Assembly: GCA_026225275.1 (NCBI GenBank)
Contig: JAMFSL010000069.1
Location: forward strand, 1 to 37,530
Direction of reading: 5' to 3'
Source of the DNA: Puia dinghuensis
Lineage (GTDB): Bacteria; Bacteroidota; Bacteroidia; Chitinophagales; Chitinophagaceae
DNA length: 37,530 nucleotides
Shown: in pieces, positions 3,236 to 37,142 of the stretch
Position numbering within the stretch: position 1 is the first letter of the stretch
Layout: the number at the start of each line of letters is the position of its first letter
Position numbers and translations under genes: made by a program
The notes under the pieces: generated by a model
Database searches by the model: none
Told to the model about the DNA's origin: nothing
What the model saw: only the letters and a program-made list of their open reading frames with translations

Positions 3236-4510
3236 CCCAAAAAAATCTCTATCCAGGATTATACTTATGATTTACCTATATCATGCATTGCGGATCATCC
3301 TTTGGCCGAGCGGGATGCCAGCCGATTGTTGGTCTACCGGGACGGGGTTATCAGCGAAACGGTCTACAGGGATATTGCCGGTCAGCTGCCCGAAGGGGCA
3401 TTGATGGTTTTCAACAATACGCGGGTTGTGGAGGCGCGGATCCTTTTTCAGAAGGCGACCGGTGCTTCCATCGAGATCTTTTGCCTGGAACCGCCGGCCG
3501 AATATGGCGGGATGGCGGCGGCTATATCGAAGACCGGGAGCGTCCGCTGGAAATGCCTGATCGGCGGGGCTTCCAAGTGGAAGCGGGGGCAAGTGTTGAC
3601 CAAGGTGATTGGCGGAGCCGGGATGGTGTTGGAGGCGCGCTATATAGAGAAGCTGACGGATTCTTTCCTGGTGGAATTGTCCTGGCAGCCGGCCACGCTG
3701 AGCTTTGCGGAGCTTTTGCATCAAGCGGGGGTCATCCCTCTCCCACCCTATATACACCGGACAGCGGAGGTTTCGGATCAGGAAAGATACCAGACTGTTT
3801 ATGCGCGGCATGATGGATCAGTTGCAGCGCCAACGGCGGGTTTGCATTTTACAGATCAAATTTTTCACGCATTGGAGGATCGGCATATCCGGCGAACGTT
3901 TGTCACCCTGCATGTGGGAGCCGGTACTTTTCTGCCGGTGAAAGCAGCCACCATGGAAGGGCATCACATGCATATCGAAGGTATTGCCGTGACGAGAGAA
4001 GCCATTGAGGAGGTACGGCATACGCTGGCGGGAGGCAGGCCGGTGATCGCTGTGGGGACGACCTCAGCGCGGACGGTGGAGAGCTTATTTTGGTTGGGGG
4101 TGCTGGCGGCGCGGCAGCCGGACGTTGCTCCGGAACAGCTAATGGTGCGGCAATGGGATGCTTATGAAGGAGCAGCGGTGGCCGGAGAGAGGGAGGCGAC
4201 CGGGAAGGGAGAGGCCGCCGGCGTGAAAGCGGAAGCGGCATTGACGGCGTTATTGGGCTGGATGGACAGGCAGCAACTGACGCAATTGGTGACAACGACG
4301 CAATTGCTGATCACGCCCGGATATGAATGGAAAATAGTCAAAGGGCTGATCACGAATTTCCACCAACCTGAGAGTACCCTGCTGTTGTTGGTAGCATCAC
4401 TAATCGGGGATGATTGGAGAAAGGTATATCATTATGCTTTGGCGCATGGATTCCGGTTTCTCAGCTATGGAGACGGGTGTCTGTTATTCCGGCCGGACGG
4501 CGACGGTTAG
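3230..4510 (+). CDS. queA: S-adenosylmethionine:tRNA ribosyltransferase-isomerase QueA
   Basis: QueA transfers and isomerises the ribosyl part of SAM onto 7-aminomethyl-7-deazaguanine in tRNA, forming epoxyqueuosine during queuosine synthesis in the cytoplasm. Family motifs include YDLPISCIADHPLAERDASRLLV split across the N-terminus, MVFNNTRVVEARI, APTAGLHFT, HVGAGTFLPV, AVGTTSARTVESL, and TNFHQPESTLLLLVASLIG near the end. At 426 residues it is long. Part of the excess is an Ala/Gly/Glu-rich insert at about residues 316-336, between WDAYEGA and LTALLGWM. It starts in an ATGCAT shared with the divergent sigma gene. It stops 11 bp before the convergent histidine kinase gene. No other queuosine gene is nearby. 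Confidence 0.95.
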   Translation: MHPKKISIQDYTYDLPISCIADHPLAERDASRLLVYRDGVISETVYRDIAGQLPEGALMVFNNTRVVEARILFQKATGASIEIFCLEPPAEYGGMAAAISKTGSVRWKCLIGGASKWKRGQVLTKVIGGAGMVLEARYIEKLTDSFLVELSWQPATLSFAELLHQAGVIPLPPYIHRTAEVSDQERYQTVYARHDGSVAAPTAGLHFTDQIFHALEDRHIRRTFVTLHVGAGTFLPVKAATMEGHHMHIEGIAVTREAIEEVRHTLAGGRPVIAVGTTSARTVESLFWLGVLAARQPDVAPEQLMVRQWDAYEGAAVAGEREATGKGEAAGVKAEAALTALLGWMDRQQLTQLVTTTQLLITPGYEWKIVKGLITNFHQPESTLLLLVASLIGDDWRKVYHYALAHGFRFLSYGDGCLLFRPDGDG

Positions 4511-25358: not shown

Positions 25359-27062
25359 TTGTCATTCAAACATCTCAATCTCATTGAGCCTTTGTTAAAG
25401 GCTTTGGATAACGAGGGCTATACGACCCCTACGCCTATCCAGGAACAGGCTATACCGATCATCCTTGACCGCAAAGATCTGTTGGGTTGTGCACAGACCG
25501 GTACCGGCAAGACGGCGGCTTTCGCATTACCTCTATTACAATTATTGTGTGAAGATACGGCCGGCATTACTGAAGAAACGCGGCCGGGTGGTCATCGTCC
25601 GATCACGGCGCTGGTGCTTACGCCCACCCGTGAACTGGCCATCCAGATCGACGAAAGCTTTGCTGCATACGGGAAGTATACGGGCATGAAGCATACCGTT
25701 ATCTTCGGCGGGGTTCCGCAGCACCAGCAAGTGCAGGCTTTACAGAAGGGCGTGGATATCCTGGTAGCGACACCGGGCAGGCTGCTCGACCTGATAGACC
25801 AGCGCTACGTCAGCCTGCAGCATATCCGGTACTTTGTGCTGGATGAGGCGGACAGGATGCTGGACATGGGTTTCATTCACGATGTGCGGAAATTGCTGAC
25901 CAAGCTTCCGGCCAAAAAACATTCGTTGTTCTTTTCGGCGACGATGCCACCGGAGATCCAAAAGCTGGCCAATACGATTCTCGTCAATCCCTCGAAGGTA
26001 GAGGTCACACCGGCTTCTACTACAGCGGAGACCGTACAGCAGTCTCTTTATTTCGTCGATAAGAAGGACAAGCGGTCTTTGCTACTGCATGTTCTGAAGG
26101 ACGGCGCCATTGGCACGGCGCTTGTCTTCACGCGTACCAAGCATGGCGCCGATAAGGTAGCCCAGGGATTGGTGCGGGCAGGTATCCGGGCGGAAGCCAT
26201 TCACGGCAACAAGTCGCAGAATGCCAGGCAGCGGGCGCTGGAGAATTTCAAGAGCCGGCACACAAGGATACTGGTGGCGACGGATATTGCGGCCAGGGGC
26301 ATCGATATCGACGAGCTGACGCATGTCATCAATTATGAGCTGCCGAATGTGCCCGAAACATATGTACATCGCATAGGCAGGACCGGCAGGGCTGGCGCCA
26401 GCGGTACCGCTCTTTCCTTCTGTGACCAGGAAGAAGGGGAATACCTGCGCGATATTCAGAAGCTGATCTCCAAAGCCATACCGGTGATTGAAGATCATCC
26501 CCACGTAATGCATGCCTCCCTCGCCATCCGGCCTTCGGTGGTGGGTACGTCTTCTGCCGCGGGCAGAGACGGATCGGGGAATGGCCGGCGTAACGGTCAG
26601 GGACATGGCAATGAACGGCGTGAAGGATCCGGCCAGCGCCGGGAAGGTTCGGGCAATGACAGACGCAATCAGGGAGCCGGTAATCAGCGCCGGGAAGGTG
26701 GAGATCAGCGCCGGGAGGCGGGAGATCAACGCCGGGATGGTGGTAATGGTCGTCGCGATGGCGGCCATCAACGCCGGGAACGGCCGGTTCAGCCTATCAA
26801 CACAGGTGACCCGATGGAGACAGCGGAGCAGCGTCTTGAACGAATCGAACGTCAGCCCGAGCCGATGGCCAAAAGACCGGAAGCACCCGTCAAACGGCCG
26901 GAGCCCATCACGCGCAAACCGGAAATCAAACGTCATGAACCAGAAGGCAGGCGCGCCGAGACGGAAGTGAAGCGCACGGAGCCTCAGCGCGATAATTCAC
27001 TGCCAAATGAAACGATTTTACCATTCAAGGTCAACCGGAGTGAGGGGGACGAAAAATGGTAG
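25359..27062 (+). CDS. rhlE: DEAD-box RNA helicase, RhlE type
   Basis: This 567-residue ATP-dependent RNA helicase has the Q motif ([12 protein letters not shown]), motif I ([11 protein letters not shown]), Ia (PTRELAIQ), II (DEAD within [13 protein letters not shown]), III (SAT), V ([11 protein letters not shown]) and VI ([10 protein letters not shown]). After about residue 395 comes a long basic tail. It first has RGG-like repeats of the QRREGG/GNDRRN type, encoded by near-repeated DNA at 26630-26790, then KRPEP-type repeats, both probably RNA-binding. I chose the TTG at 25359: an in-frame TAA lies upstream and no ATG intervenes, and [13 protein letters not shown] is the normal N-terminus. 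The family acts in ribosome assembly and RNA turnover. The long leader may carry its regulation. Confidence 0.95.
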
Positions 27063-27081
27063 AATTTGCCTAATTTGGGCA

Positions 27082-27906
27082 ATGGCAATGATCAGAAGAT
27101 ATTGGCTGCTATGGGCAGCAATGCTGCCTTCCCTGTCCGGCCACACTTCTTACCGGACAGAGGAAGGCGGTTTATTATCCGTCTTCACCAAGGTACAGTA
27201 TGAAACTTTCTTTCCGCATCATCACCTGTTGTATAGTTATGAAGCCCTGGTGAAAGCGGCCGCGACCTATCCCCTTTTCGCCGGTACCGGCGATGTAGCG
27301 GTGCGCCGGCGTGAGCTGGCCGCCTTTCTCGCGGAAGTTGCACATGAAACAACCGGCGGATGGTCGGGAGCACCAGGAGGTCTCTATGCCTGGGGGCTCT
27401 ATTATACGGAAGAGCAGGCATGCCTGGACGGGCACTGTAAACAGTATAATGTCTCCGATGGGGGTCCCTACCGGGCTGCGCCCGGAAAATCTTATTATGG
27501 CCGGGGGCCGATACAGCTGACTTATCCTTACAATTACGGGCAGGCGGGTGCTGACCTGGGGTTACCGTTGCTGGCCCGTCCCGAGTTGGTGAGCCATGAC
27601 GGGGTGATCGCCTTCCAAACGGCGCTATGGTTTTGGATGCGGGCAGATGGTTCAGAGCCTTCCTGCCATGCGGTTATGACCGGGCTGTGGCAACCGGATG
27701 CGAAAGACCGGCGGCTGGGAAGGCGACCGGGATTCGGAATGACGATCAACATCATCAATGGCAATGTAGAATGCAATAGCCGGGTGCCGGCCATCCGGAA
27801 GGAGCTGGAAGACCGGATAGGGTATTACCGGCATTTTTCCGGCTTATTACAGGTGCCGGTAGAGAAGGATTGCGATTGCGCCGGAATGGCTGCGTATACC
27901 GATTAG
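27082..27906 (+). CDS. Secreted GH19 chitinase/lysozyme-type glycoside hydrolase
   Basis: This 274-residue GH19 enzyme cleaves beta-1,4 bonds in chitin or peptidoglycan by inversion. A signal peptide (MAMIRRYWLLWAAMLPSLSG) begins at the ATG at 27082. Motifs include AEVAHETTGGW with the catalytic glutamate, YYGRGPIQLTYPYNYGQAG, AFQTALWFWM, and GFGMTINIINGNVECN. The reading frame stays open upstream to 27007 inside the helicase gene, but the signal peptide and the helicase stop at 27062 favour 27082 (or 27088). It lies 19 bp after the helicase and 26 bp before the GT87-like gene, so it may share transcripts with either. Whether the target is fungal chitin or bacterial wall cannot be told. Confidence 0.92.
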   Translation: MAMIRRYWLLWAAMLPSLSGHTSYRTEEGGLLSVFTKVQYETFFPHHHLLYSYEALVKAAATYPLFAGTGDVAVRRRELAAFLAEVAHETTGGWSGAPGGLYAWGLYYTEEQACLDGHCKQYNVSDGGPYRAAPGKSYYGRGPIQLTYPYNYGQAGADLGLPLLARPELVSHDGVIAFQTALWFWMRADGSEPSCHAVMTGLWQPDAKDRRLGRRPGFGMTINIINGNVECNSRVPAIRKELEDRIGYYRHFSGLLQVPVEKDCDCAGMAAYTD

Positions 27907-27932: not shown

Positions 27933-29132
27933 ATGAACCTGACTAAGGCTAATCTAATCAGGACCTGGCAATCCAGGAGTCTTTCCATCGTACTGTTCGC
28001 TTATGTATTGATATCCGTCCTTGCCGCTGTGCAGGGGCTGACGGCAGGTCCGAAGACCTATATTCCGGGAGGGCGGCCTTATATCGATTATAATAATTTC
28101 CGCATTTTTAAATTCTCTTTCTATCACCTGATCCAGGGTAAGGATATCTATCAGCTGTTCCCGGACGATCACTGGGACCTGTATAAATATAGTCCGGGGT
28201 TCGCGCTGTGTTTTGGGTTGTTGTCGTGGATGCCGGATATCATAGGGCTCTTATTGTGGAACCTCATCAACTCACTGTGTCTGTATGCGGGTGTGCGATT
28301 ATTGCCTGGCATCAGTGATGAAAAAAAGAGCTGGATCCTGCTGTTCTGCCTGCTGGAAATGTTATTATCGATACAAAACACCCAAAGTAACGGGCTCATG
28401 GCCGGCCTAACAGTTATGGCCTTTGCGCTGGCCGAACGTCGCAATTACTTTCTTTCAACCCTTTGTGTTGTTTTCTCGTTCTATATTAAAATATACGGTG
28501 CGGCGGCGTTTGTCCTCTACCTGTTTTATCCGGACAAGCTCCGGTTGGCGGGATGGTCGCTGTTCTGGATGTTGTTTTTTGCGCTGCTGCCGCTGTTGGT
28601 GGTTGACAGTCACCAGCTGATGTTGCTTTACCGCAGTTGGCTGCATCTGTTGTTAAACGATCGATCTGCCTCTACCGGGTTGTCCGTGATGGGCATCCTG
28701 GTCAGTTGGTGGCATCTGGATGCTGCCAAGAATATAGTGACGGGGGCAGGTATTATATTGTTCTTATTACCGCTGGTTTATGTGCGACATTATCGGGATT
28801 TGCATTTCCGGTTATTATATCTCGCGAATCTGCTGATCTGGATGGTGATCTTCAATCACAAGGCCGAATCGCCGACTTTCGTCATCGTCATGGCCGGGAT
28901 CGGGATATGGTATTTTTCACGGCAACCCGATGTAATGGACAAGGTATTAATGATCCTGTCGTTCTTGCTGATCACCATGTCTGTTTCGGATCTGGTGCCG
29001 GCTGCGGTCCGGAATGATTTTATCCGGCCTTATGGCATCAAGGCGGTGATGGCGATTGTCATATGGTGCAGGATCTTGTATGAACAAATGACTTTTCGCG
29101 AACGGGCCGTTGGTTCGTCCGTTGAGAGATGA
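27933..29132 (+). CDS. GT87-like integral-membrane glycosyltransferase (DUF2029)
   Basis: This 399-residue, very hydrophobic protein with about 9-10 membrane helices resembles the GT87/DUF2029 family, whose known actinobacterial members are polyprenyl-phosphate-mannose-dependent mannosyltransferases. Visible family-like stretches are YIDYNNFRIFKFSFYHLIQG with KDIYQLF, YKYSPGFALCFG, and QNTQSNGLMAGLTVMAF. The start is the ATG at 27933; the frame is open further upstream over the GH19 gene. Its TGA overlaps the ATG of the UbiA gene (29129) by 4 bp, so the two are probably translationally coupled. That coupling suggests it may glycosylate the product of the following genes or a lipid carrier. 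This link is inference; the sugar and acceptor are unknown. Confidence 0.83.
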   Translation: MNLTKANLIRTWQSRSLSIVLFAYVLISVLAAVQGLTAGPKTYIPGGRPYIDYNNFRIFKFSFYHLIQGKDIYQLFPDDHWDLYKYSPGFALCFGLLSWMPDIIGLLLWNLINSLCLYAGVRLLPGISDEKKSWILLFCLLEMLLSIQNTQSNGLMAGLTVMAFALAERRNYFLSTLCVVFSFYIKIYGAAAFVLYLFYPDKLRLAGWSLFWMLFFALLPLLVVDSHQLMLLYRSWLHLLLNDRSASTGLSVMGILVSWWHLDAAKNIVTGAGIILFLLPLVYVRHYRDLHFRLLYLANLLIWMVIFNHKAESPTFVIVMAGIGIWYFSRQPDVMDKVLMILSFLLITMSVSDLVPAAVRNDFIRPYGIKAVMAIVIWCRILYEQMTFRERAVGSSVER

Positions 29133-30016
29133 AAAATATGGAAAGATTCCAACGCTCGACATTACAGCTGTTACGACTACCCTTCTCTTTTTTCCTGATG
29201 CCGGTATACTGGTTTGCACTGAGCCAGGTGGTGGGCCGGGATTGGTGCCGGGCGTTGCTGATCTTTATTATTCTGCATGTGCTGGTCTATCCTGCCAGCA
29301 ATGGATACAACAGTTATATGGACCGGGATACCGGACCGATCGGCGGGGTAGCGAATCCCCTGCAGCCTACGCGGCAGCTGTATACGGTCACGCTGGTAAT
29401 GGATGGGCTGGCTTTGTTGCTGGGTCTTTTCATCGGGCTGTATTTTACTGCGGGGCTGCTATGTTATATCCTGGCATCGAAGGCGTATAGCTGGCGGCGG
29501 ATCAGGCTGAAAAAATATCCGTTTGCCGGCTATCTGACAGTCATCAGCTGTCAGGGAGCGTTGGTGTTCCTTCTGGTATATCAGGGCAGTCATTCTGCTG
29601 CCAGTGCGTGGGTCGGGCTGCAAGGGACCGGAGAGGCGATGCTGGCCTGTTCGCTATTGCTTGGCGGGTTCTATCCACTGACGCAGATCTATCAGCATGA
29701 GGCGGATCGCAGGGACGGAGTGAGAACGCTGAGCCAGGTATTGGGATATAGAGGCAGTTTTGTATTTACCGGGATCGTTTACGGCATTGCTGTTGTCTTA
29801 TTGGCCGATTATTTTCTTTCCACGCTTCAGGTGACAGAATTTTGTGTATTGGCAACCTGCATGCTACCAGTCGTCGTTTACTTCCTCATATGGGCCGTAA
29901 AAGTGTGGAAAGATCCGGCCCAGGCCAATTTTTCCAATACGATGCGGATGAACCTACTGGCCTCGGTATGCACTAATGCGGGTTTTATTGCCGTATTGGT
30001 CATAGAAGGAATGTAA
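29129..30016 (+). CDS. UbiA-family membrane prenyltransferase
   Basis: This 295-residue protein with about 8-9 membrane helices belongs to the UbiA superfamily, which joins prenyl diphosphates to aromatic or other acceptors. The first Asp-rich site reads NGYNSYMDRDTG (about residues 56-67) and the second YQHEADRRDGVRTL (about 190-203). These are recognisable versions of the diphosphate/Mg-binding motifs, though the first departs from the textbook NDxxDxxxD by having Asn in the middle. It overlaps the GT87-like gene by 4 bp and lies 57 bp before the type III PKS gene. In this setting a prenyl transfer to a polyketide-derived phenol is plausible. MenA- or UbiA-like quinone synthesis is the main alternative. 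Confidence 0.87.
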   Translation: MKNMERFQRSTLQLLRLPFSFFLMPVYWFALSQVVGRDWCRALLIFIILHVLVYPASNGYNSYMDRDTGPIGGVANPLQPTRQLYTVTLVMDGLALLLGLFIGLYFTAGLLCYILASKAYSWRRIRLKKYPFAGYLTVISCQGALVFLLVYQGSHSAASAWVGLQGTGEAMLACSLLLGGFYPLTQIYQHEADRRDGVRTLSQVLGYRGSFVFTGIVYGIAVVLLADYFLSTLQVTEFCVLATCMLPVVVYFLIWAVKVWKDPAQANFSNTMRMNLLASVCTNAGFIAVLVIEGM

Positions 30017-30027
30017 GGGTCTGGTCT

Positions 30028-30035
30028 CATCTTTG
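30028..30035 (+). promoter_or_regulatory. Possible internal promoter before the type III PKS gene
   Basis: CATCTTTG, followed by C, differs from TAnnTTTG only at the first base. It lies in the 57-bp UbiA-PKS gap, about 40 bp before the PKS start. No clear -33 element is seen. Confidence 0.3.
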
Positions 30036-30073
30036 CAGCTATTGAATACGTATATAAATCAAGCACATCCATT

Positions 30074-31165
30074 TTGAGCAAGCTCATTTCCATCGGAACA
30101 GCAGTTCCCGCCTATCAACACCGCCAGAGCGATATTCTTCCGTTCATGCAACGAATTTATGCTTTGGAGAATCAAGCTAACAGAAAGTTAAAGTTCCTTT
30201 ATCAGCAGAGCGGCATTGAAGCGCGGTATTCGGTCATCCCGGACTATTCCCGGTCCATCACCGAGTGGGAGTTTTATCCGCCGACAGAGAATCTGGAACC
30301 TTTCCCGTCTTTGGAATTGAGAATGCAATGGTATCGACAATTTGCAGCGCCGTTGTCGATGCAGGCGATCCATCGCTGTCTGGAAGGGCAGCTGGATCCT
30401 TCCTCTATTACGCATCTGATCACGGTGAGTTGTACGGGGATGAGTGCTCCGGGGCTCGATCTGGAGTTGGTGGAGGCGTTGGGTCTGCCGCCGGTTGTAT
30501 TCAGGACTTCGGTGAATTTTATGGGTTGTTATGCCGCCGTACATGCATTAAAGCTGGCCGATGCGCTGGCAAAGTCCTCTCCTGGAGCCAGGATATTGAT
30601 CGTCTGTACAGAACTATGCACGCTGCACTTTCAGCAGGAGGGTACAGTAGACAATATGTTGTCAAGCCTGCTGTTTGCCGACGGATCTGCCGCGGCGTTG
30701 GTCGTATCGGATGATCATCCGGGTAAAGGATTGAGGTTGAGGGATTTCTATTCCGAAATCGTGCCGGAGGGCAAAAGGGCGATGACCTGGGATATGTCTT
30801 CTTCCGGCTTTCGGATGACACTGACCAGTTATGTGACGGATCTGATCAGGGCCGATTTTGATGGTCTGGTCGGCAACGCCCTGAAAAAAAGCGGACTGGG
30901 CCGGGACGATATCAGTCACTGGTGTGTGCACCCGGGCGGTAAAAAGATACTGGACTCTATTTATAAGAGTCTTGGTTTTACCAATGGGCATCTGGATGAT
31001 AGCTACGCGATCCTGAAGGAATATGGAAATATGTCTTCTCCTACCATCCTCTTTGTCCTGCAGCGGATCATGAAACAACTGGACTATAGTCAGCCAAATT
31101 GTATATTCGGTGCTGCATTCGGCCCGGGTCTTACGATGGAGACATTTATCGTAGAAACAAATTAG
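30074..31165 (+). CDS. Type III polyketide synthase (chalcone synthase-like)
   Basis: This 363-residue ketosynthase homodimer is of the chalcone/alkylresorcinol synthase type, which extends an acyl-CoA starter with malonyl-CoA and cyclises the product. The Cys-His-Asn triad is visible: C152 in SVNFMGCYAAVHAL, H286 in WCVHPGGKKILD, and N319 in KEYGNMSSPTILFVL. The conserved VSCTGMSAPGLDLELVEALG and AAFGPGLTMETF segments are present. The start is probably the TTG at 30074, since no ATG is in frame just upstream and SKLISIGTAVPAY is a normal N-terminus. The methyltransferase gene starts 1 bp after its stop. The presence of His in a VHPGG context and of GNMSS separates it from FabH. Alkylpyrones or alkylresorcinols are the expected products. 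Confidence 0.93.
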   Translation: MSKLISIGTAVPAYQHRQSDILPFMQRIYALENQANRKLKFLYQQSGIEARYSVIPDYSRSITEWEFYPPTENLEPFPSLELRMQWYRQFAAPLSMQAIHRCLEGQLDPSSITHLITVSCTGMSAPGLDLELVEALGLPPVVFRTSVNFMGCYAAVHALKLADALAKSSPGARILIVCTELCTLHFQQEGTVDNMLSSLLFADGSAAALVVSDDHPGKGLRLRDFYSEIVPEGKRAMTWDMSSSGFRMTLTSYVTDLIRADFDGLVGNALKKSGLGRDDISHWCVHPGGKKILDSIYKSLGFTNGHLDDSYAILKEYGNMSSPTILFVLQRIMKQLDYSQPNCIFGAAFGPGLTMETFIVETN

Positions 31166-31166
31166 C

Positions 31167-31904
31167 ATGAAAATCAGTTATGCCAAAAGGAGCGCCGAGA
31201 AGGAGCTGCTGGACCGGGACGATATCCCTTTTGCGGATATAGAGCGGAACATGCATGAACTGGATTTCATCAATACCTGGCTGGGGGGGCACCGGATCAG
31301 CATCAGAGGGTTGAAAAGGTTGCTGGGGGGTCGTCAGCGGATAACGGTTTGTGAGATCGGGTGTGGCGGCGGTGACAATCTCAGAGCATTGAGCCTTTAT
31401 TGCCACCGGTGGGGCATAGAAATAGAGGTGATCGGCGTCGACAACAATGCGCAGTGTATTGCGGTGGCCAGGGAAAAATGGCGGGGTGGTCATGCGGAAT
31501 GGGTGTATGCGGATTATCGGAAAGTGATATTTGATAAGCGGAGGCCGGATATCATTTTTTCTTCCCTTTTTTGTCATCATTTTACGGATGAAGAATTGAT
31601 CTATATGCTACGCTGGATGGAGAAAAATGCCGGCGCCGGATGGTACATCAATGATCTGCAACGGCATCCTGTGGCTTATCATGCTATTCGGCTGCTGACG
31701 AAATGGTGGTCGAGGTCATATCTTGTTAAAAATGACGCTCCACTTTCTGTTTTGCGGGGTTTCACCCGGGAAGAATGGGAAAAGTTATTAGAGCAGGCCG
31801 GCGTGACCGGGTGTTCGCTGGAGTGGAAATGGGCTTTTCGGTGGCTTTTATCCAAGTCTACCGATTCCGGACTGAGGGTCATCCGTACGGGGAATTATTC
31901 TTAA
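31167..31904 (+). CDS. Class I SAM-dependent methyltransferase
   Basis: This 245-residue soluble methyltransferase has SAM motif I, VCEIGCGGGDNLRAL (about residues 64-78), an acidic residue ending the second strand (VIGVDNNA) and a post-motif stretch DIIFSSLFCHHF. No membrane segment is visible. It begins 1 bp after the PKS stop and ends 8 bp before the oxidoreductase, so the three are almost certainly co-transcribed. By analogy with SrsB of Streptomyces griseus, which methylates type III PKS-derived phenolic lipids, it may O- or C-methylate the PKS product. Similar methyltransferases next to a UbiA gene also occur in quinone pathways. Confidence 0.88.
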   Translation: MKISYAKRSAEKELLDRDDIPFADIERNMHELDFINTWLGGHRISIRGLKRLLGGRQRITVCEIGCGGGDNLRALSLYCHRWGIEIEVIGVDNNAQCIAVAREKWRGGHAEWVYADYRKVIFDKRRPDIIFSSLFCHHFTDEELIYMLRWMEKNAGAGWYINDLQRHPVAYHAIRLLTKWWSRSYLVKNDAPLSVLRGFTREEWEKLLEQAGVTGCSLEWKWAFRWLLSKSTDSGLRVIRTGNYS

Positions 31905-31912
31905 TCTACAAT

Positions 31913-33079
31913 ATGGAGGAGACTTCAGGCGCAGGAGATCTGGCTAAAAGCGGGCATTATGACGTCATTATAGCTGGCGGCGGGCTGGCCGGGTTGGCGC
32001 TGTCCATCCAGTTAGCCAGGGCCGGATATGCGGTAGCGCTGTTCGAGAAAGAGCGTTATCCCTACCACAAGGTCTGCGGGGAGTATATCAGTCTGGAAAG
32101 TTGGAATTTCCTGGAAGAACTGGGTCTGCCGCTGAGCGACTGGAACCTGCCTATTATCAGAAGATTGCTCTTGTCAGCGCCTGATGGAAGGGCCATCGAG
32201 CAGGAGTTGCCGCTGGGTGGGTTTGGCATCAGCCGATATAAGATAGATGCCGAACTGGCCGCTATTGCGCGGTCGGCGGGGGTTGCGCTATGGGAGTCCG
32301 TAAGGGTGACCGATATAGTGTTTGAAAGATCATTGTTCGATGTAAAGACCAGTGCAGGGAATTTCTCGGCTACGGTAGCCTGTGGTACGTACGGTAAGCG
32401 TAGCAACCTGGACATCAAATGGAAGAGAAATTTTATCCGGAAGAAGTCCAACTATCTCAACAACTATATAGGGGTGAAATATCATGTGCAGGCGGACATC
32501 GAGGATGATCTGATCGGTCTGCATCATTTTAAGGATGGTTATTGCGGCATTTCCCGGATAGAAGAGGGTCGTTGTTGTCTTTGTTATATGACTACGGCGG
32601 GAAATCTCCGGAAGAGCGGAAATTCCATTTCCGATATGGAGAACAATATTTTGCGGAAAAATCCGCTGCTGGATAAGATCTTTGCATCTTCCGTCTTCCT
32701 CTTTCCGCAGCCGTTGACCATTTCGCAGATCAGCTTCGAGAAAAGGACGCAGGTGGAAAATCATTTGTTGTTTGTCGGCGACGCGGCCGGCATGGCCCCT
32801 CCCCTGGCGGGCAATGGAATGAGTATGGGCTTACATGGTAGTAAGATTGCCTTTCAATGCATCGATACTTTTTTAAAGGGGCAGATAGCCCGTTATGAGA
32901 TGGAACAGGAGTATATCGACCGCTGGAACAGGCAATTCGGCCGGCGGTTATGGATGGGACGATTATTGCAGCGCTGGTTTAGCAGTTCCACACGTACGAA
33001 ACTTTTACTATATTCGCTAAAACCTTTTCCCAGGTTAATTTCTTTTCTGATCCGTCAGACGCACGGTCAGCCATTTTAG
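31913..33079 (+). CDS. FAD-dependent oxidoreductase (hydroxylase or geranylgeranyl-reductase-like)
   Basis: This 388-residue flavoprotein has the Rossmann FAD site at its N-terminus (IIAGGGLAGLALSIQLARAG, then LFEKERYPYHKVCGEYIS) and the second FAD motif VGDAAGMAPPLAGNGMSMGL near residue 285. The KVCGE motif and overall shape fit the geranylgeranyl reductase/halogenase branch of the group A flavoprotein superfamily; the WxWxIP motif of halogenases is absent. Candidate jobs are aromatic hydroxylation of the PKS product, as SrsC does, or reduction of a prenyl chain added by the UbiA enzyme. I chose the ATG at 31913 because MEETSGAGDLAKSGHYD leads directly into the FAD fold; the upstream part overlaps the methyltransferase. 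Confidence 0.88.
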   Translation: MEETSGAGDLAKSGHYDVIIAGGGLAGLALSIQLARAGYAVALFEKERYPYHKVCGEYISLESWNFLEELGLPLSDWNLPIIRRLLLSAPDGRAIEQELPLGGFGISRYKIDAELAAIARSAGVALWESVRVTDIVFERSLFDVKTSAGNFSATVACGTYGKRSNLDIKWKRNFIRKKSNYLNNYIGVKYHVQADIEDDLIGLHHFKDGYCGISRIEEGRCCLCYMTTAGNLRKSGNSISDMENNILRKNPLLDKIFASSVFLFPQPLTISQISFEKRTQVENHLLFVGDAAGMAPPLAGNGMSMGLHGSKIAFQCIDTFLKGQIARYEMEQEYIDRWNRQFGRRLWMGRLLQRWFSSSTRTKLLLYSLKPFPRLISFLIRQTHGQPF

Positions 33080-33141: not shown

Positions 33142-34611
33142 ATGAGTCATGTCAAAGCTGGCGCTGTAGGATTGTTCACGGCATTGGTCTTTTCGTTGGC
33201 TGCGCGGTCGCAGGACTATCACGCTATAGAAGGGTCACCCTATGCAGGGGGTATCGGAGTAGCAAATAATCCGGCCTCCATTCTGATGACACCTTACCCG
33301 TGGGACATCACCGTGTTTTCTATGCAGGAGACCAATACGACGAATGCCGTCTCCTTCAGCAATTTCTCCTATTTATCCGGCCTATTCCCCAGCGACACGA
33401 TACATTATCACTTTACGAACGGCGATTTAAAGCGCTTTGCGGCGTTCAATTTCAACATGCATCTGCTGAATGTCCGGTTGGCCCTGGGCCGTAAGCAGGC
33501 TATTGCCTTCGGAGCCAATATCCGGGGTTATGGCGCTGTGAAAACGGGAAATGTGAACTATAATGATACGCTGAAGAATATGAACCAATTCTTCAACATC
33601 AATGATGGCACTACTTATAAGGCCAATTTTGTCAGCAGTACCTGGGCGGAGATCTTCATGACCTATAGCCGGACCATCATAGATGATGAATATAGCCGGT
33701 TGAATGCGGGGATCACGTTGAAAGGTATGCGGGGGATTTCGGGCCTGTATGCCCAGTTGGAAAACGGATCGGTGAATCGTACGATATCGGGGCCTTTGAC
33801 CATCTATGACCTGGCGGCGGGTTCCGGAAGGTATGCGTATTCAGAGAATTATGACTATTGGCATAACAATCAAAGTACCACACAGAATCTGAAAGACTTC
33901 CTTGGTCACACGCAGGGGGGAGCCGCCGTCGATTTCGGCGCCGAATACCTGATAAAAACCCAGGCTGTGCCTATTTATGGTGATCCCGATGACTACTATG
34001 ACTATGAGTGGAAGATCGGCGTCTCCCTGCTGGATATAGGCGCCAATAATTACAGATATGGATCGCAGAGCAGGGCGGTCAGCGATCCGAAGACCAATGT
34101 ATCCGATTCTGAATTGAATGAAAAGTTCGATCATCTAAAGACACTGGCAGGCTTTAATGACAGTATGGCGTCGATCGTCAACTCCATTGTTCCGCTGGCG
34201 GGTTCGTATAAGATCTGGAATCCGGCCAGGCTGGTGGTGAATATCGACAGGCCGCTGCCGAATAATTTTGCGTTGAATGCCGATCTTACGCTGAACCTGG
34301 GCGGATCGAACAATGGGCAACGGCTATTCACCAAAGAGATCACCCTATTAGCGGTTACCCCCCGATGGGAGACTAAGTCACTGGGGACCTATCTGCCTGT
34401 GCAGGTGACGACAGAGGGGAGGGTATGGGTCGGAGGCGCCTTCAAGGCGGGGCCTTTGTTATTGGGCATTCACAACTGGGCGAATCTTTTTTCCGGTAGT
34501 AAGACACAGAACGGGGGTTTCTATCTGGCATTCGTGATCAAGCCTGGCAAAGGGTTTTCGTTCAAGGAGGCCAGGAAGTATACCTGTCCGGATAATTCGC
34601 CTTATTTCTGA
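33142..34611 (+). CDS. DUF5723-type outer-membrane protein
   Basis: This 489-residue exported protein has a signal peptide (MSHVKAGAVGLFTALVFSLAARS, cleaved before QDYHA). The body is a long series of amphipathic beta strands rich in Tyr, Asn and Gly, typical of an outer-membrane barrel (for example WAEIFMTYSRTIIDDEYSRL and AGITLKGMRGISGLYAQLEN). It resembles the DUF5723 family of Bacteroidota. The NNPASILMTPYPWDI opening recalls the FadL-like barrels of this phylum. No function is established. It follows the FAD oxidoreductase by 62 bp, so it could be an outer-membrane partner of the cluster or simply the next gene; nothing in the sequence decides this. Confidence 0.82.
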   Translation: MSHVKAGAVGLFTALVFSLAARSQDYHAIEGSPYAGGIGVANNPASILMTPYPWDITVFSMQETNTTNAVSFSNFSYLSGLFPSDTIHYHFTNGDLKRFAAFNFNMHLLNVRLALGRKQAIAFGANIRGYGAVKTGNVNYNDTLKNMNQFFNINDGTTYKANFVSSTWAEIFMTYSRTIIDDEYSRLNAGITLKGMRGISGLYAQLENGSVNRTISGPLTIYDLAAGSGRYAYSENYDYWHNNQSTTQNLKDFLGHTQGGAAVDFGAEYLIKTQAVPIYGDPDDYYDYEWKIGVSLLDIGANNYRYGSQSRAVSDPKTNVSDSELNEKFDHLKTLAGFNDSMASIVNSIVPLAGSYKIWNPARLVVNIDRPLPNNFALNADLTLNLGGSNNGQRLFTKEITLLAVTPRWETKSLGTYLPVQVTTEGRVWVGGAFKAGPLLLGIHNWANLFSGSKTQNGGFYLAFVIKPGKGFSFKEARKYTCPDNSPYF

Positions 34612-36377: not shown

Positions 36378-37142
36378 ATGGCCAACTATTCACATGATAG
36401 GATCGTCCCTTTTAAGGACTCGGAGCTGGGAAAGAAGCAGCAGGTTGCCGAAATGTTTGATAAGATCGCATTCAGGTATGATTTTTTGAACCGCTTGCTT
36501 TCAGGAGGCAGTGATATCTACTGGCGGCGGCAGGCGATCCGGGAAGTGGCGAAATATAAGGGTAATATGGCCATTTTGGATGTGGCGACGGGGACGGGTG
36601 ATATGGCTATCATGATGGCCCGCTATTTTCCCCAGTCGCAATTGACCGGTGTAGATATTTCGTCGGGCATGCTGGAGATCGGACGGCAAAAAGTCGCCCG
36701 ACTGCAACTGGACAAAAGGATCATTCTGCAAATAGGCGATAGTGAGGCCCTCCCCTTTCCTGATCATTATTTCAATGCCATTACCGTAGCCTTCGGCGTC
36801 CGCAATTTCGAGAACCTGGAACGTGGTCTCCGGGAGATGAGGCGGGTGCTGAAGCCGGGAGGGCAACTTGTCGTGCTGGAATTCTCCAAGCCACGACTAC
36901 CCGGCATCACCCAGGTGTATAACCTTTATCTTCGACTCGTAGCCCCCACCATCGGCAGACTGGTATCCAGCAACCGGGAGGCATACCGCTATCTGAACGA
37001 TTCTGTCAGAGCCTTTCCTGAGGGGGATGACTTCTTACAGATCCTCGATGACTGTGGCTATGTGCGTACACGGCTGAGACGGCTGAGCCTGGGAATCTGC
37101 AGCCTATATATAGGCGAAAAAGCGCCGGACCAGGGCAATTAA
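36378..37142 (+). CDS. ubiE: Demethylmenaquinone methyltransferase UbiE/MenG
   Basis: This 254-residue SAM methyltransferase carries out the last step of menaquinone synthesis. Markers are MFDKIAFRYDFLNRLLSGGSD with the following IYWRR, motif I ILDVATGTGDMAIMMA, GVDISSGMLEIGRQK, and VAFGVRNFENLERGLREM. Near the end GGQLVVLEFSKP and VYNLYLRLVAPTIGRLVSSN are family hallmarks. Bacteroidota respire with menaquinone, so MenG activity is expected rather than ubiquinone synthesis. It is divergent from engB with a shared promoter region and lies 117 bp upstream of porT, a pairing often seen in this phylum. Confidence 0.96.
   Translation: MANYSHDRIVPFKDSELGKKQQVAEMFDKIAFRYDFLNRLLSGGSDIYWRRQAIREVAKYKGNMAILDVATGTGDMAIMMARYFPQSQLTGVDISSGMLEIGRQKVARLQLDKRIILQIGDSEALPFPDHYFNAITVAFGVRNFENLERGLREMRRVLKPGGQLVVLEFSKPRLPGITQVYNLYLRLVAPTIGRLVSSNREAYRYLNDSVRAFPEGDDFLQILDDCGYVRTRLRRLSLGICSLYIGEKAPDQGN

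Follow-up and report, generated by a model that had tools for sequence, protein, structure and literature searches.

A conserved type III polyketide synthase cluster with a constant UbiA-type partner in Bacteroidia, probably for a prenylated phenolic lipid

Contig JAMFSL010000069.1 of Puia dinghuensis (assembly GCA_026225275.1), whose 37,530 nucleotides form the window analysed here, carries five plus-strand open reading frames at positions 27933-33079 that encode, in order, a GT87-like protein, a UbiA-fold membrane enzyme, a type III polyketide synthase (PKS), a methyltransferase and an FAD-dependent enzyme. The question raised by this locus is whether these genes form one pathway and, if so, what that pathway makes. 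The original prediction, made from the sequence alone, was of a PKS-derived phenolic lipid that is prenylated, methylated, oxidised and possibly glycosylated. A check of the open reading frames agrees with its gene positions and with its spacings of -4, 57, 1 and 8 bp, given the starts used here, and all five family assignments are backed by Pfam matches above the curated cut-offs. The window genome (6.59 Mb in 365 contigs, completeness 99.9%) contains one PF00195 type III PKS and six UbiA-family proteins.

The cluster is real, conserved and functionally linked, with the UbiA-type enzyme as a constant partner rather than an exception, and its chemistry we infer. The core of the original prediction has thus gained gene linkage, while its chemistry and its resorcinol ring stay at the level of prediction. 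The locus probably directs the synthesis, in Bacteroidota, of a prenylated phenolic lipid or quinone that is also methylated and hydroxylated.

Recurrence of a four-gene core across Bacteroidia

The cluster was followed in two samples. The first comprises the best 80 of 453 PKS relatives from a scan of GTDB genomes (named loci), and the second comprises 71 of the 76 places held by the main PKS clade, defined below, in 395 sampled Bacteroidia genomes, with up to 5 kb of flank on each side (class-wide loci; the window's own place and those in G174, G052, G326 and G183 were left out). Methyltransferase and FAD genes were counted when present near the PKS, in the locus flanks. Of the rows chosen for alignments A1, A2 and A3, 48 of 61, 32 of 41 and 38 of 51, respectively, were used.

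The core consists of four genes, encoding the UbiA enzyme, the type III PKS, the methyltransferase and the FAD enzyme. Among the named loci, UbiA lies beside the PKS in 80/80, the methyltransferase is present in 76/80, the FAD gene in 75/80 and the whole core in 74/80. Median gaps, calculated from longest-frame starts, are -8 bp between UbiA and PKS (n=79), 0 bp between PKS and methyltransferase (n=75) and -8 bp between methyltransferase and FAD genes (n=71). In L025, L061 and L080 the sequence stops shortly after the PKS; L024 and L051 are without the methyltransferase and FAD genes, and L081 is without the methyltransferase.

Within the 395 genomes, PKS matches form two clades on opposite sides of the tree, a main clade of at least 197.8 bits in 75 genomes and a second clade of 114-161 bits in about 35. 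The main clade is spread over many families of the sample. In its class-wide loci, UbiA lies within 5 kb of the PKS in 64 of 71, the methyltransferase in 60, the FAD gene in 56 and all four genes in 51, and in the remaining seven the UbiA gene is found elsewhere in the genome. Order and orientation vary across the class, with UbiA ahead of the PKS, behind the FAD gene or divergent. As the arrangement recurs across the class, it is not a product of chance. The original prediction was to be abandoned if the PKS, UbiA and FAD genes were rarely found together, which is the opposite of what these counts and the pairing described next reveal; of the five-gene neighbourhood that it proposed to search for, the four-gene core recurs but the GT87 gene does not.

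The pairing of PKS and UbiA extends to whole genomes. At a threshold of E<=1e-20, the UbiA subfamily was matched in 83 of the 395 genomes, namely in 75 of the 75 with a main-clade PKS, including the seven with a non-adjacent UbiA, and in 8 of the 320 others (Fisher p ~3e-72, a value that ignores shared descent). This co-occurrence rules out a chance neighbourhood. In addition, PKS and UbiA correlated with r=0.655 in a mirror-tree comparison, where shuffling gave 0.221 at most; this correlation mixes shared descent with coupling. A search of 72,556 plasmid records returned no match to the UbiA enzyme.

Among the genomes with a UbiA match and no counted main-clade PKS, G228 and G383 have a PKS fragment beside UbiA, cut by the contig end, and in G283 it is the UbiA gene that is cut; its contig, of 3.7 kb, bears a YceI gene as well. 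Elsewhere, the protein departs from the motifs described in the next section: G350 has Lys for Gln189, motif 1 is altered in G038 and in a fragment in G320, G010 has Thr for Gln189 and no match to the motif-1 pattern, and in G112 neither pattern was matched. A UbiA with a readable signature and no sign of a main-clade PKS is found in G283 only, on a contig too short to tell. These sequences suggest that the UbiA relatives in genomes without the main-clade PKS (L201-L204, that is, G350, G038, G112 and G010) decayed or acquired a new function after loss of the PKS.

This distribution bears on whether the locus is an ordinary alkylresorcinol pathway of the srs or hid type, in which UbiA would be a mere neighbour acting on something else. 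A methyltransferase and a flavoprotein are indeed common to the srs, pkq and hid clusters (PMC9927152, PMC10896814), and the second Bacteroidota PKS clade, for which flanks were taken at 9 of 35 places, has both genes in 9/9 loci and a nearby UbiA in 0/9. However, the main clade does not conform to a three-gene type without a UbiA partner, as the UbiA match is present in every one of its 75 genomes even where the two genes lie apart, and some lineages retain PKS and UbiA with no methyltransferase or FAD gene nearby. We therefore regard the neighbour explanation as improbable.

The second clade (L192-L200) could represent an unprenylated sister pathway. In family f12, six loci (L133, L137, L138, L154, L164 and L173) have PKS and UbiA with no methyltransferase or FAD gene nearby, and adjoin a gene of about 240 amino acids that by eye resembles a response regulator, with a partner of about 670 amino acids in four of them; the full core is present in two other f12 loci, L126 and L148. 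Finally, a record assigned to Beijerinckiaceae (Alphaproteobacteria), L086 (match at 3423-4502, with flanks), contains the four genes and the window's downstream neighbour gene, and is probably a misbinned Bacteroidota contig.

The UbiA-fold enzyme and its metal site

The UbiA-fold membrane enzyme (29129-30016, plus strand), a probable prenyltransferase with the motifs NxxxDxD and QxxQHxxD, belongs to the UbiA superfamily by its Pfam UbiA score (56.4 bits) and its all-helical UbiA fold. The canonical pair in this superfamily is NxxxDxxxD with DxxxD; the first of these motifs, and the pair as found in Mpz10, are described in PMC4044012. The Bacteroidia subfamily instead has NxxxDxD and QxxxD in 140/140 readable rows of an alignment of 141. 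These rows come from the loci with a UbiA of sufficient length, 77 of the 80 named and 63 of the 64 class-wide ones, and from the window; one row has an unreadable motif 2. Motif 1 spans residues N61-D67 (NSYMDRD; 29309-29329, plus strand), with N61, D65 and D67 in 141/141 rows. Motif 2 spans residues Q186-D193 (QIYQHEAD; 29684-29707, plus strand), where a Gln replaces the first Asp of DxxxD and Q186, Q189 and D193 are present in 140/140 readable rows. Of the Asp-rich sites that had been predicted, the metal-motif positions do exist, but they are not the usual pair (N61xxxD65xD67, Q189xxxD193).

This altered site allows a reading in which the cluster is the same and the enzyme uses a donor other than a prenyl diphosphate, or makes another transfer onto the polyketide, in the manner of the UbiA-fold phosphoribosyltransferases. 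We consider such an alternative transfer quite unlikely. A pattern check revealed no second DxxxD in heme o synthase or in the DPPR-type paralogue either, so that not every member of the superfamily has the canonical pair.

The remaining UbiA paralogues of the window genome help to separate the cluster enzyme from menaquinone synthesis. They comprise a heme o synthase (TIGR01473, 253.8 bits), an MqnP-like protein (TIGR01475, 267 bits, cut-off 180.8), a decaprenyl-phosphate phosphoribosyltransferase (248.3 bits), a GGGPS-like protein whose top model is PRK12872.1-3 ('prenyltransferase', 285.9 bits, below the cut-off of 288), followed by PRK12872.1-1 (the geranylgeranylglycerol-phosphate geranylgeranyltransferase model, 199.1), and a fifth with a 19.9-bit match only. 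The genome also encodes MqnC (443.5 bits, cut-off 428.1). Given MqnC above its cut-off and the separate MqnP-like enzyme, menaquinone appears to be made via futalosine, using a UbiA protein of its own. The best NCBIfam match of the cluster enzyme reaches just 26.6 bits, and at E<=0.001 its matches include neither a MenA nor an MqnP model. The original prediction was also to fall if the cluster UbiA grouped with MenA in a genome with no second one, and these matches point the other way. That the cluster enzyme is the genome's menaquinone prenyltransferase in an accidental neighbourhood has its UbiA-family membership in its favour; in view of the separate menaquinone genes and the missing model matches, this candidate was rejected as highly improbable.

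YceI proteins bind polyisoprenoids, and YceI-family genes (PF04264, one representative scanned) occur in the flanks of 13 of the 71 class-wide loci, kilobases off in some, where 1.28 would be expected by chance in the 758 kb searched (density from 77 matches in those 13 genomes; Poisson P ~1e-9). They were found at 0/9 second-clade loci. These neighbours are a pointer to an isoprenoid product. In 'Saltatorellus ferox', which was examined alongside planctomycetes, the operon with the type III PKS likewise includes a gene for a lipid/isoprenoid-binding protein, according to PMC10896814.

From polyketide ring to predicted product

The type III PKS (30074-31165, plus strand; Chal_sti_synt_N 101.2 bits, Chal_sti_synt_C 78.3 bits) has the start codon TTG, and its relatives likewise begin MSKIISIGTAVP. 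It has the CHS-like fold and the Cys-His-Asn triad of the type III family; C152, H286 and N319 are in place, as originally predicted, and invariant in 161/161 aligned rows. The nearest solved folds or sequences, Mycobacterium tuberculosis PKS11, Ectocarpus PKS1 and Dictyostelium Steely1, share 27-31% identity with the window PKS and differ from it in products and partners. W283, a candidate counterpart of the Trp281 by which ArsB-like resorcinol specificity is judged, is present in 132/161 rows; ArsB itself stands outside the alignment, and Pks18 also has Trp in this column. The PKS would condense an acyl starter with malonyl-CoA and close a resorcinol- or phloroglucinol-like ring, onto which the UbiA-fold enzyme, whose fold and linkage to the PKS are established, would place an isoprenoid chain from a presumed donor.

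In most species, the methyltransferase and the FAD enzyme would then methylate and hydroxylate the ring, giving a methoxy-hydroquinone or quinone, by analogy with srs-, pkq- and hid-type clusters. The SAM-dependent methyltransferase (31167-31904, plus strand) matches Methyltransf_25 with 46.3 bits, and its best NCBIfam match is PRK06202 (133 bits, below the cut-off of 243). The FAD-dependent oxidoreductase (31913-33079, plus strand, from an internal ATG of a longest frame starting at 31775; FAD_binding_3 39 bits) belongs to the superfamily of geranylgeranyl reductases, halogenases and hydroxylases. Flavin-dependent halogenases have the motif WxWxIP. It is absent from the window enzyme, and where halogenase 5buk has WVWQIP the family consensus is GYCGISKIED, which excludes a halogenase.

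The FAD enzyme is probably a ring hydroxylase, a role proposed because of the likeness to the srs, pkq and hid clusters. In a live if unlikely alternative, which would change this one step, the enzyme would act like a geranylgeranyl reductase on the prenyl chain in place of hydroxylating the ring; the tail would then resemble that of the agq cluster compared below, whose product is reportedly an O-dihydrogeranyl methoxyhydroquinone. The best NCBIfam match is in fact to the geranylgeranyl reductase model TIGR02032 (GG-red-SF, 91.5 bits), and the archaeal digeranylgeranylglycerophospholipid reductase 3oz2 is among the PDB profile matches. However, the score is below the cut-off of 158.8 for that family, the top PDB profile matches are halogenases and a flavin monooxygenase, and FAD genes also stand beside the second-clade PKS, where UbiA is absent (9/9 loci).

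This route would yield a lipid of the membrane that is possibly redox-active. As a special case, it could be an alternative respiratory lipoquinone, an electron-carrying prenylated or alkylated benzoquinone comparable to the polyketide quinones of Mycobacterium and Streptomyces. Those quinones do come from PKS-methyltransferase-FAD operons (PMC9927152), and the wide spread of the main clade would suit such a role. Yet COX1, present in 370/395 Bacteroidia genomes, is uninformative as a marker of aerobic use and does not discriminate, some lineages have no methyltransferase and FAD genes by the cluster, and G039 (locus L166), with a main-clade PKS, UbiA on another contig and neither tailoring gene near the PKS, gave no COX1 match at 1e-80. 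A respiratory function is therefore rather unlikely. From G039, the PKS-UbiA pair may work without oxygen chemistry.

Several observations weigh against a prenylated phenolic lipid. With no canonical second DxxxD in the UbiA enzyme, it is not certain that a prenyl diphosphate is used. Among solved PKS structures the nearest (4jat) makes alkylpyrones, according to its title, and because of this and of the Pks18 Trp that aligns with W283, a resorcinol product is not established. YceI genes are near 0/80 named loci, with none in the window. The methyltransferase is missing near the PKS in 11/71 class-wide loci and the FAD gene in 15/71, some of them at contig ends. In addition, the co-occurrence counts are not phylogenetically independent, and the 75 UbiA matches include two with defects, that of G052 being in two pieces and that of G100 having in-frame stops.

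The PKS-UbiA pair is present in about one-fifth of the sampled Bacteroidia genomes (75/395). If a prenylated phenolic lipid or quinone is indeed made, then the membranes of much of this common class contain a compound not found in our literature searches, one that ordinary lipidomics could detect. A bolder proposal, to which we give only a small chance, is that this obligate pair makes a polyketide-headed meroterpenoid quinone beside menaquinone, the rewired metal site (NxxxDxD/QxxxD) carrying out a transfer undescribed for UbiA enzymes. Because of its link to a single PKS clade and its altered metal site, the UbiA subfamily is well suited to testing which motif residues UbiA enzymes require and which group they transfer.

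Neighbouring genes and known systems

The GT87-family (PF09594) membrane glycosyltransferase-like protein (27933-29132, plus strand) begins at an ATG within a longer frame that opens at 27870, shares its last 4 bp with the UbiA gene and is assigned to its family by a Pfam match of 61.9 bits (cut-off 25). A GT87 gene is near the cluster in 4/80 named loci (L008, L010, L013 and L014), at -4, -4, -4 and +5 bp from UbiA, and in 0/71 class-wide loci searched with a profile from the window and three relatives; in L007, the closest relative, the contig stops within UbiA and leaves its presence unreadable. GT87 is a lineage-specific local addition outside the four-gene core, and its absence class-wide rules out a general pathway role. 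The proposed glycosylation is weakly indicated by the position of the gene, which abuts or overlaps UbiA where present; in the window's close kin, GT87 might glycosylate the lipid.

Immediately upstream, at 27007-27906, is a GH19 chitinase gene, near the cluster in 5/80 named loci, a synteny that is probably unrelated to the pathway. The gene downstream of the cluster (33142-34611) lies beside it in 19/80 named loci, with a median gap of 5 bp to the FAD gene; its product has no Pfam or NCBIfam match and by eye is an outer-membrane-type Bacteroidota protein. At 36378-37142, 3.3 kb past the cluster, a gene product by eye resembles the UbiE/MenG quinone methyltransferase.

In Streptomyces, Mycobacterium, cyanobacteria and Planctomycetota, clusters of PKS, methyltransferase and flavoprotein genes are described as sources of alkylresorcinols and alkylquinones (PMC9927152, PMC10896814). 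Our literature searches, with poor coverage of subscription journals, found no work on UbiA-linked type III PKSs in Bacteroidota. Like the Bacteroidia set, srs of Streptomyces griseus and pkqA-C of Mycobacterium smegmatis and Streptomyces MNU77 combine a PKS with a methyltransferase and an oxidoreductase or hydroxylase, and yield alkyl benzoquinones (PMC9927152); these are three-gene systems, and the word 'prenyl' is absent from that source. The hidABC genes of cyanobacteria and a three-gene operon of Planctomycetota likewise encode a methyltransferase, an oxidoreductase and a type III PKS, and, unlike the Bacteroidia set, are described without a prenyltransferase; planctomycetal PKSs gave alkylresorcinols when expressed heterologously (PMC10896814). 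A hierridin-like cluster in Raphidiopsis mediterranea does encode a prenyltransferase, and is termed unique in this respect (PMC8086630). In the losA locus of Micromonospora endolithica, UbiA-family and methyltransferase genes also lie beside a type III PKS gene, together with an acyl-CoA dehydrogenase gene, and the products are alkylresorcinols, as the title of PMC7587189 states.

The original prediction took srsABC as its comparison and missed agq of Actinoplanes missouriensis (Awakawa 2011), the closer precedent in gene content. Its type III PKS (AgqA) provides alkylresorcinols that are prenylated and hydroxylated, and it has a membrane-bound prenyltransferase (PMC10896814, PMC4044012). The agq cluster reportedly includes an FAD gene and a methyltransferase gene as well. 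This gene content was found in the window, in 74/80 named loci and in 51/71 class-wide loci. The likeness is one of gene content; agq is actinobacterial, whereas the Bacteroidia set is distinguished by its non-canonical UbiA motifs and its class-wide pairing, and in this respect represents a class-wide variant of the phenolic-lipid type III PKS pathway with a constant UbiA-type partner.

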